From positions 300,757-364,756 of the forward strand of contig NZ_LNNH01000012.1 of NCBI RefSeq assembly GCF_001542915.1: 64,000 nt of DNA, read 5' to 3'. Below, piece after piece: positions 3,284-38,097 of the stretch. Source of the stretch: Peribacillus simplex. GTDB taxonomy: Bacteria > Bacillota > Bacilli > Bacillales > DSM-1321. The notes under the pieces are model-generated. The model was not told where the DNA came from and did not search any database. It saw only the letters and a list, made by a program, of their open reading frames with translations. Position numbers and translations under genes: made by a program. Numbering within the stretch: the first letter of the stretch is position 1; every line of letters starts with the position of its first letter.

Positions 3284-3829
3284 TCATTGATTCATTTGAT
3301 CGAGAAAATCTCCAAGAAGATCGTCGAGGTTCTCCTCTTCCGTCTCCGGTTCTTCCTCTTGCCGTTCCAATTCATTCAAGCCCCAGTCAAAGTCATCCAG
3401 TTCCTTCTTGGGCAAGTTTTCCTGGACTTCCATGATCGGATCGTCTTCCTCCGGTTCGGCCTGTAAATATGGTTCCTCATTCAATACATTGCCGTTTAAA
3501 GACGCAAGCAACGCCGTAGCGCGTAAAGGATCGGATAAAAGGTGATACATGATCGTTCCGAGCATAGCTTCCGAGTGGGAATGCTTGAGCCAATCACGCT
3601 GCGATTTGCTTAGCTTATTCGGCATCGGCAAGGCGATCATTTCCCGATCCTGATGGGTGGCTTGCCCGACTCCATCGAGAACATACTCGGCAATTTTACT
3701 GGAAAAATTCCTTCTTTCCGTTTCCTTCAATTTCTGCAGCAGCCTTAACGTATAATCTGATACATCCGAAGGGATACGAAAAGTGATGGCTTGTCCTCTC
3801 TTAATTTCAGAAGAAGCTGTTTTTTTCAT
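3284..3829 (-). CDS. Small acidic-tailed protein, probable ParR-like partner of the actin-like protein
   Basis: A 181-residue protein with no family I can name with certainty. The first ~60 residues contain ITFRIPSDVSDYTLRLLQKLKE followed by RRNFSSKIAEYVLDGV, i.e. a short strand then helices, as expected for a ribbon-helix-helix or similar DNA-binding domain. The last ~70 residues are strongly acidic (many Glu and Asp). It starts 8 nt downstream of the actin-like gene and shares its terminator, so the two form an operon. In plasmid parMRC systems the gene after parM encodes the DNA-binding adaptor ParR. That analogy, plus the repeat array upstream of the operon, suggests this is the adaptor; direct homology is not shown. 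Confidence 0.65.
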   Translation of the reverse strand: MKKTASSEIKRGQAITFRIPSDVSDYTLRLLQKLKETERRNFSSKIAEYVLDGVGQATHQDREMIALPMPNKLSKSQRDWLKHSHSEAMLGTIMYHLLSDPLRATALLASLNGNVLNEEPYLQAEPEEDDPIMEVQENLPKKELDDFDWGLNELERQEEEPETEEENLDDLLGDFLDQMNQ

Positions 3830-3837
3830 TCTCCCAC

Positions 3838-5034
3838 CTATTTAATGGAGCCTGTTCTTTGCTCTTTCCTCTTTGGATGGGCTTGATTTTGTTCCTTTTT
3901 TGCATTCCGGCGATTGAAGTCCGAAATCAATTTATAATAGGCGTTTGCCATCATCCAAACGCTTTCCCGCTCGTCTTCGAAAAAGTCGATATTGTAGCCA
4001 TCGAAATTTTGGTTCAATGTTTTCAAGTAATCTTTCAGGACAATCGATCCCCCGCCAACAAAGTAGCAAATTTCCGTTTGGGAATTTTTTTGCCAGACGT
4101 TGCGCAGGTGGCGATATTGTTTCTTGGCAAGCTCACCTAAAATACGGTCGACGATATCATGCACGCTTGTCCGGCTTCCGCGGACCATGATATGATTGCG
4201 ATCATTTTTCTTCGTGATGATTTCAACGACATCGCGCCTGCTGTCCAGCTCGACACCATGTTTTTTCCTGATTTCCTCACGGATCGACTCAAGCGCTTCA
4301 GCCACTCCCAAGTTGAAACCTTGTGCCTTATCGTCGTCTACTTTACGGTTTTTAATGACCGCGATATCCGTCGAAAGTCCGCCGATATCCTGAATCAGTA
4401 TCCTTCTATCTATTAATTCACGGTTGATGATATTCAAGTCATTGTCCATGACCAAATTGATATAAGCAGCAAAGCCCTCTGGATAGACCTTCACTTCATC
4501 GAATTTGATATTGACCTTCAACCCTTGGTATTTAGGGGTAATCAGGAATTCCACCTGATGGACCGAACCTAGTAACTTCGAGCGGTACCCGACGTCTTTT
4601 CCTTCTTTAACCTCACGAAGGGGCAAGCCGGTTCCAAGTGTATAATTGGCTTCCACAACATTATTCACTTTTTTGAATGTATCATTGTTCCCTTGTTTGG
4701 CAGCGTCCAAAGCCAGGGCTGCAAAAAGCATGACCAATGTTTGATCTTCTTCCGATTTACTGCTTCCCATATCCAATTCGGTAGGGTTATCACTCTTTGT
4801 TGCCAGATTCCCGACGCGATAGATGGCATTATTATCTTGCAGGGCTGGTGAATGAACTCTGATATGAATCCCTTCGAGCGGGTTTTTTTCATCAAGTTCT
4901 TCAATCCCGATAACCGGGCGATCTTCTATGTCCTTTGCAATGACGTTTGGTATATATAGCTCTGACTCTAGCTTTCCAAAAATAGCTTTGATAGCATCAT
5001 TACCTACGTCTACTGCTGCGATTCTAGAACTCAT
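3838..5034 (-). CDS. ParM/StbA-family actin-like ATPase
   Basis: A 398-residue bacterial actin homologue. Phosphate-1 loop: AAVDVGNDAIKAIFG near residues 6-20. Phosphate-2 region: QDIGGLSTDIAVI near 215. A later YFVGGGSIVLK near residue 325 matches the adenosine-binding loop of the actin/Hsp70 fold. Such proteins polymerise with ATP and push DNA or other cargo apart. The start is preceded by AAGGGGA. It is followed by a small acidic-tailed gene and preceded by a dense TGTNNACA array, which is the parC-parM-parR layout of plasmid segregation loci, although the surrounding genes look chromosomal. Its real cargo cannot be told from sequence. Confidence 0.85.
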   Translation of the reverse strand: MSSRIAAVDVGNDAIKAIFGKLESELYIPNVIAKDIEDRPVIGIEELDEKNPLEGIHIRVHSPALQDNNAIYRVGNLATKSDNPTELDMGSSKSEEDQTLVMLFAALALDAAKQGNNDTFKKVNNVVEANYTLGTGLPLREVKEGKDVGYRSKLLGSVHQVEFLITPKYQGLKVNIKFDEVKVYPEGFAAYINLVMDNDLNIINRELIDRRILIQDIGGLSTDIAVIKNRKVDDDKAQGFNLGVAEALESIREEIRKKHGVELDSRRDVVEIITKKNDRNHIMVRGSRTSVHDIVDRILGELAKKQYRHLRNVWQKNSQTEICYFVGGGSIVLKDYLKTLNQNFDGYNIDFFEDERESVWMMANAYYKLISDFNRRNAKKEQNQAHPKRKEQRTGSIK

Positions 5035-5087
5035 CTAAAAACATCCCCTTTTTCATAGAAAAAAATTTAAGTGAAGCATTCTTCTCA

Positions 5088-5116
5088 AGGATAGAAAAAA
5101 TTGCCACGATAGTCAA
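5088..5116 (-). promoter_or_regulatory. Sigma-A promoter of the actin-like operon
   Basis: Minus-strand TTGACT -35 (5111-5116) and TATCCT -10 (5088-5093) with a 17-nt spacer, placed about 54 nt before the start codon at 5034. Confidence 0.65.
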
Positions 5117-5158
5117 TCCTTCATTAGTTGTAGCTATATTTGTCGAAATGTTTTCAAA

Positions 5159-5284
5159 TTGTTTACAATAGGAACAAATATGTACACACCTTATATATAG
5201 CCATGTGTACATGTTTGTAAACATGTTTACATATTAGTGTACAATCTATCTATTTTTGTTTACTTGTATACGTTTTTGTAAACA
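5159..5284. repeat. Array of TGTNNACA palindromic sites (parC-like centromere/operator candidate)
   Basis: Six exact copies of the 8-mer TGTNNACA begin at 5160 (TGTTTACA), 5181 (TGTACACA), 5204 (TGTGTACA), 5216 (TGTAAACA), 5224 (TGTTTACA) and 5277 (TGTAAACA). Further imperfect ones begin at 5238 (TGTACAAT), 5257 (TGTTTACT) and 5265 (TGTATACG). This is far above chance for 125 bp. The array lies directly upstream of the actin-like operon promoter, the position of parC in plasmid parMRC loci, where it serves both as centromere and operator. Confidence 0.7.
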
Positions 5285-5330
5285 CCCATATAATGTATTC
5301 CAGATCTCCCCCCTCCTTCAAAAAACAAGC

Positions 5331-5353
5331 GTATAAAAAGTGATTTTGGGTAT
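5331..5353 (+). promoter_or_regulatory. Possible sigma-B (general stress) promoter
   Basis: GTATAA (5331-5336) and a perfect GGGTAT (5348-5353) are 11 nt apart, close to the sigma-B consensus GTTTAA-N12-14-GGGTAT, although the spacer is slightly short. It lies 47 nt before the start of the Rieske/FAD oxidoreductase. Confidence 0.4.
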
Positions 5354-5400
5354 GGTAATAAATGGACAATTCACTATTGGAGAGTAATGGAGGTAATTAC

Positions 5401-38055: not shown

Positions 38056-38097
38056 CAGGATGATGTTGATTCCGTTCCACATGAAACAATGAAGAAA

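Follow-up and report, generated by a model that had tools for sequence, protein, structure and literature searches.

A plasmid-style parCMR locus conserved left of the chromosomal origin in many Bacillus relatives

Main

Here, we describe a plasmid-style parCMR locus that many Bacillus relatives keep permanently on the chromosome, not far to the left of the origin in every genome measured, and that is a good candidate for a second machine moving or anchoring the chromosome. The locus lies in a 64,000-nucleotide stretch of Peribacillus simplex DNA (hereafter the window), and our evidence comes from its gene families, operon, array, conservation, purifying selection and position, and from second arrays without an intact gene. 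We give slightly better than even odds (about 0.52) to a domesticated, vertically inherited chromosomal parCMR that acts on the origin-proximal left arm beside ParABS/Noc. Chromosomal ParMs have already been published from Desulfitobacterium and Clostridium (Dh-cParMR-1 and Cb-cParCMR; Ali et al. 2025, PMC12270681); new relative to the papers searched are the breadth of the locus, its side of the origin and the gene-free arrays. That paper also names B. tropicus pairs (Bt-cParMR), with Bt-cParM conserved on several Bacillus species, work that may overlap with the locus family described here. It further reports that Cb-cParR binds the upstream palindromic cparC in a gel shift, and that ParCMR is yet to be implicated in chromosome segregation. 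Searches of open-licence literature, mostly without subscription papers, turned up no binding, filament or segregation experiment for this chromosomal parMR family, nor any description of a Bacillaceae locus that carries such an array and is linked to oriC.

Proteins and locus layout

A sequence-only reading of the window had proposed an actin-like ParM-family gene, a following small gene with a possible DNA-binding N-terminus and acidic tail, and an upstream array, together reproducing the parC-parM-parR layout of plasmid segregation loci. The first of these assignments is confirmed by Pfam, PHROG and fold. parM (3838..5034, minus strand), single copy in the window genome, encodes a 398-aa actin-like ATPase of the Alp7A/ParM group that matches Alp7A_like_C (E 2.5e-36) and ALP_N (2.2e-10) in Pfam, and PHROG 691 'partition protein' (6e-44). 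An AlphaFold model from 47 orthologues is of moderate quality (mean pLDDT 67.8, pTM 0.65). Its ten top Foldseek matches include B. thuringiensis ParM (the best), Dh-cParM1, pSK41 ParM and Alp7A. Identity in the fold alignment is 14–21% to B. thuringiensis ParM (4xe7/4xho) and pSK41 ParM (3js6), both plasmid encoded (PMC12270681). The protein falls outside FcmB, with an NCBIfam FcmB score of 27.3 bits against a cut-off of 300, and outside ParABS, being actin-type with no Walker ParA.

The small gene, parR (3284..3829, minus strand; 181 aa, 8 bp after parM), has no match of its own in Pfam, NCBIfam or PHROG. Some relatives give weak, unrelated Pfam hits (best E 0.012), and comparison with PDB sequences returned nothing meaningful (best E 0.26 alone, 0.43 as a profile). 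An HMM of the chromosomal orthologues matches the partners of six plasmid ParMs at E 2e-23 to 2e-30, in a search of those six sequences only with heuristics off, over the N-terminus and a middle IPLPxxLxxxQxxWL-like block; the partners are annotated 'hypothetical protein'. As in ParCMR systems, parM thus has an adjacent partner homologous to plasmid ParM partners, and we take the small protein as a predicted ParR, the proposed DNA-binding adaptor. Its N-terminus (residues 11-54; 3668..3799, minus strand; RGQAITFRIPSD...ERRNFSSKIAEYVLDGV) holds many invariant columns in the orthologue alignment and, from pattern and recall, reads as a putative ribbon-helix-helix. Pfam gives no RHH hit there, the ParR monomer model is weak (pTM 0.27) and a fold search with that model found no match with E under 1. 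The acidic tail is correct as far as the linker goes, which is acidic and variable, but the description was incomplete: the chromosomal ParRs then end in a strongly conserved DDLLGDFLxxMN-like stretch with invariant or near-invariant columns. This DDLLGDFL end (residues 168-180; 3290..3328, minus strand), with a model helix at 168-179, is proposed as the filament-binding peptide that would contact ParM.

The parC-like array (5141..5284) lies upstream of parM, in the gap before a divergent FAD/Rieske oxidoreductase gene. Between array and parM is a sigma-A-like promoter, TTGACT-17-TATCCT (5088..5116, minus strand; consensus match 9/12), with the array just upstream of it. Promoter-like matches in this region are not commoner than in shuffles; a loose TTGNNN-16/18-TANNNT occurs in the last 140 nt before parM at 76 of 80 loci, a count that has no shuffled control. 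An Rfam search gave no RNA element at gathering score. Family matches, fold, small-protein homology and array conservation bear out the parC-parM-parR layout, and the flanks are the ordinary chromosomal genes that had been read there: Pfam identifies the permease (Xan_ur_permease) and the FAD/Rieske oxidoreductase, and adds a DEAD-box helicase.

Octamer array

Within 5160-5284 there are six exact TGTNNACA sites (5160, 5181, 5204, 5216, 5224 and 5277) and three with one mismatch (5236, 5257 and 5265), in agreement with the roughly nine sites in 125 bp counted originally. Further one-mismatch sites lie at 5179, overlapping 5181, and at 5141 and 5149, which extend the array to 5141. Spacings are mostly 8, 11-12 and 20-23 bp. 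Not one of 2000 dinucleotide shuffles of 5035-5361 reached at least six exact sites (mean 0.23, maximum 3). Exact sites number 12 across the 64 kb window, where about 10 would arise by chance; hence, the motif is common and only its clustering is special. Two exact sites stand within 30 bp of each other at 21 places in the window genome (9 places for the reversed pattern) and, among the matches listed genome-wide, the parC run alone has more than three. The proposed check for other arrays in the genome yielded one other triple, with sites 21 bp apart, at G000:C2:21868-21917 (L140:9869-9918), flanked by genes whose translations we read as a GntR-type regulator and a dehydrogenase. We rejected this triple as another parC, given that its neighbours point to an operator of the GntR-type regulator, which it probably is, with a spacing that mimics parC.

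The sequence-only reading had named absence of the array from orthologous operons as evidence against itself, and the array is present at nearly all of them. At least three exact TGTNNACA sites stand within 500 bp upstream of parM at 78 of 80 loci (expected 0.1-0.6) and at least five at 61; the two exceptions, L087 with two sites and L095 with one, are not above chance. In L066, where parM is broken, the 500 bp were measured from codon 50. The commonest distances of up to 25 bp in the 80 upstream regions are 8, 12 and 20-21 bp, and the central pair of the octamer is most often AT (171 of 481 sites). The operon thus carries an iterated, binding-site-like array, as belongs to ParCMR.

Plasmid relatives

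The plasmid relatives of ParM are at most 44% identical to it. Of 98 plasmid records that match ParM, seven were read, and six of these have an annotated partner gene. Paired octamer palindromes, following the pattern TGNATNCA with one mismatch (a pattern chosen after seeing the sites), occur upstream of all seven plasmid parMs; the members of a pair are separated by 11 bp in five plasmids, by 12 bp in a sixth and by about 21 bp in the seventh. About four looser octamers make up the operator in six of the seven plasmids and six in the other. Exact TGTNNACA is absent upstream of parM in six of the seven and present three times in L144. That the architecture is alike although the letters differ indirectly suggests that proteins of this family read such octamers. 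The chromosomal locus resembles Alp7A of pLS20 and the related Bacillaceae and Paenibacillus plasmid ParMs in closest Pfam family (Alp7A_like_C), in operon order and in partners that are homologous where annotated. It differs in ParM identity and in octamer letters for most plasmids, and plasmid partners end in acidic FDDDD- or FDEE-like residues whereas chromosomal ParRs end in DDLLGDFL.

In L144, a P. polymyxa plasmid, the exact TGTNNACA sites lie about 100-60 bp upstream of parM and may show a shift in octamer specificity. A second ParM, 42-44% identical and probably plasmid-borne, is found on other contigs of five same-genus genomes (G014:C111, G035:C65, G017:C33, G029:C2 and G018:C3).

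Distribution and descent

Conservation in related strains, also put forward as a check, was examined in several genome sets: about half of the order sample has an orthologue, and the flanks differ between genera. An orthologue occurs in 41 of 43 genomes of the window genome's family. Five of the 41 (G015, G002, G003, G009 and G010) are listed with a stop codon or cut short, although the fetched region of G002 has parM open to its own stop. Because dnaA is broken in G015 too, we take the broken parM in G015/L066 as an assembly fault and reject it as real. The class sample has an orthologue in 24 of 398 genomes (77-100% identity, three listed with a stop; next match 44%), and the order sample in 201 of 397 genomes and 55 of 135 genera at a threshold of E 1e-150 or better. 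The 80 loci are the best 80 of 435 encoding stretches in the named collection. All 80 have both parM and parR (parM broken in L066); no other neighbour cluster within 5 kb occurs at more than 20, and neighbours vary by genus.

In a tree of 41 proteins (28 chromosomal, seven plasmid, six other relatives), a long branch with full support separates the 28 chromosomal proteins, among which branches are short, from the plasmid and other relatives; the tool warns that some long branches may attract. Comparison of the window with two close relatives gives a dN/dS of about 0.02 for parM and about 0.13 for parR, with three farther pairs saturated. Conservation, tree and dN/dS together suggest that the locus was domesticated once and has since been inherited vertically under strong constraint. 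In its chromosomal location and its conservation among species, the locus is like the published cParMRs.

The Alp7A-like family is absent from a B. subtilis control genome. This absence, and that from about half of the order's sampled genomes, means that the job is dispensable or done otherwise there. SpoIIE is missing from 17 of the 397 order genomes, of which one has parM, compared with 200 of the 380 others (Fisher p 9e-5). Because the genomes share ancestry, some of them are small, and parM is absent from many that do have SpoIIE, we regard the co-absence as only a weak hint of a link to sporulation.

Position relative to the origin

In all 95 genomes that could be measured, parM is located to the left of dnaA and is encoded on the opposite strand. 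The tabulated set comprises 85 genomes from 21 families, with parM 32-281 kb left of dnaA (median 95) in every one. Ten further genomes placed by hand, with contigs paired according to their length, give 106 (G010), 41 (G440), 160 (G441), 107 (G442), 39 (G445), 68 (G447), 127 (G448), 67 (G453), 67 (G455) and 59 kb (G459). We sought dnaA in 43 family genomes, 45 further ones and 37 chosen mainly for few contigs, and compared positions where parM and dnaA share a contig; they are apart in 23 genomes, including the window genome. In the same-species genome G025, parM is about 99 kb from dnaA.

As position controls, two window neighbours were placed in 25 of the measured genomes. The nearest purU is within 300 kb left of dnaA in 3 of 12 evaluable genomes (8 no match, 5 on another contig) and the nearest Rieske oxidoreductase in 7 of 14 (2 no match, 7 on another contig; G297 and G215, whose matches are about 35% identical, left out). 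Compared with all for parM, this gives Fisher p 0.0003 and 0.006, respectively, with the orthology of distant matches not certain. The position of parM may nevertheless reflect general gene-order stability near oriC: in the 21 genomes read, spoIIE is always 70-85 kb to the right of dnaA, which indicates that gene order near the origin is generally stable and makes the parM position supportive, not decisive.

G025 has separate ParA/ParB-type genes and Noc near the origin, left of dnaA, and parCMR would hence be an added system, not a replacement. For the B. subtilis parS consensus, the 64 kb window has no match with 0-1 mismatches and a single two-mismatch match, at 38073.

Second arrays

Nine of the 80 named loci have a second cluster of at least three exact TGTNNACA sites, about 1.0-2.3 kb upstream of parM and with no intact second parM (L031-L034, L036-L038, L055 and L099). 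Seven of the nine belong to the eight Peribacillus-type loci L031-L038, where they stand 0.7-2 kb farther out than the first array and have 4-7 exact sites with first-array-like spacing; the others come from other genera (L055, three sites; L099, six sites). The window genome has no second array. Decayed N-terminal parM pieces follow the second array in L032, L033, L034 and L038. No such piece was found beside it in L031, L036, L037, L055 or L099, and the -10 box after it is changed in L031, L036 and L037.

Across the seven Peribacillus-type loci the mean number of exact sites is 6.4 in second arrays and 5.3 in first arrays; between the two, site cores are 94% alike, spacers 82% and flanks 73% and 52%. 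In L031, L036 and L037, which have no parM piece, site cores and 5' flank are both 93% alike, and because the cores are no more alike than the flank these three alone show nothing. Most simply, these loci reflect a duplication after which the second gene died while its array was retained as a cis site. The second arrays may also be a recent duplication that is still undecayed, seven of the nine coming from one group. The existence of a conserved cis site a second time without its gene, in some strains, is a useful handle, as are the wide spread of the family, its single copy in the window genome, its strong constraint and its place on one side of the origin.

Discussion

In the mechanism that we propose, ParR dimers would bind the TGTNNACA octamers of parC cooperatively, and the array-bound ParR would display its C-terminal helices, which would capture or cap ParM filaments. 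Once formed, the filaments would exert force on the chromosome, pushing apart or anchoring the DNA to the left of oriC on the two sister chromosomes, and parCMR would be a second origin-region system working beside ParABS/Noc. A possible, though doubtful, extension concerns the cell-cycle stage: ParM filaments, with ParR on an oriC-left centromere, might segregate or hold the left arm above all at prespore capture, in the place that RacA-ram has in B. subtilis. Going by the 2025 paper on chromosomal ParMs, no ParCMR has yet been shown to act on a chromosome, and under this extension the present locus would be the first. According to PMC4949633, RacA sites in B. subtilis are concentrated in a 250 kb stretch to the left of oriC, and the first DNA captured in the prespore centres slightly left of oriC. 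RacA-ram and the present locus share arm and range; this is a functional comparison only, and no sequence relation is proposed.

A repurposed cytoskeleton, in which ParM and ParR shape the cell or its envelope and the array is an autorepression operator, is in our view unlikely. It has a precedent in a filamentous cyanobacterium, where rod shape is under the control of FcmB/FcmC, a ParM-type pair encoded on the chromosome (PMC12645912); the window array just upstream of a promoter-like site would also suit an operator. CorM (PDB 9rmi), beside FcmBC, is a fold match to our ParM model. Both pairs are chromosomal and, on our reading of the present locus, domesticated, but FcmBC acts in cell shape whereas the locus here keeps a DNA array. 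That array has at least five exact sites at 61 of 80 loci, where six of the seven plasmid operators have about four octamers of looser match. Second arrays that persist beside a decayed or undetected parM, three of them with a changed -10 box, also speak against an operator, and a role in cell shape gives no obvious reason for the origin-side position.

We find it rather improbable that the operon is simply autoregulated and its filament does housekeeping unrelated to position, such as plasmid stabilising or a DNA tether, with nearness to oriC a relic of old gene order. The stable place of spoIIE and the 42-44% identical relatives on other contigs of some same-genus genomes would fit such a role, but exact TGTNNACA is missing in front of parM in six of the seven plasmid relatives, and the window neighbours are gone from the region in many genomes. 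A chromosomal incompatibility or plasmid-exclusion device, with parC/ParR as a decoy against incoming plasmids of the same type, is very improbable: L144 does have three exact TGTNNACA sites, but the other six plasmid relatives have none, and exclusion leaves the strong ParM constraint and the chromosomal position unexplained. A partition locus of a prophage or other mobile element resident in the chromosome is rejected as scarcely credible, despite the match to a PHROG partition family, by ordinary flanks, conservation on a constant side of oriC in 21 families, and phage matches that are weak (3 among 50,697 records, 24-26% identity), with neither a phage element nor close phage relatives to set beside it. 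Hence, where the sequence-only reading had left a chromosomal region and a prophage-like element side by side, the former is favoured and the latter falls away.

The chromosomal parCMR that we prefer resembles cParCMR in being a chromosomal parM-parR pair conserved within groups. It differs in that its array is conserved across genera, whereas PMC12270681 states that no conserved cparC was identified among the Clostridium strains, and in that the locus occurs in about half of the order's sampled genomes and keeps to one side of oriC.

Additional observations

Several genomes have open frames of about 600-614 aa that suggested a ParM-ParR fusion. We rejected it: in eight of eight fetched regions (seven of the long-frame kind or near kin, one plain) parM ends in its own stop. 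Where parR was printed, in five, it follows in frame after parM in four (L170-L173) and out of frame in L177. The locus also occurs in harmless bacteria, Alkalihalophilus pseudofirmus OF4 (L091) among them. The genomes without SpoIIE, 16 of 17 of which are also without parM, include G512, G561, G583, G629, G671, G730, G711 and G769. Finally, a search pattern designed for other sites picked up a dispersed palindrome family, TGTAGACAaactc...gagttTGTCTACA, resembling REP-type or terminator-type elements, at ten places in the window genome (G000:C2:21057; C12:130172 and 157118; C17:31117; C28:142960; C38:66298; C40:106441; C46:93368; C54:51830 and 220130).
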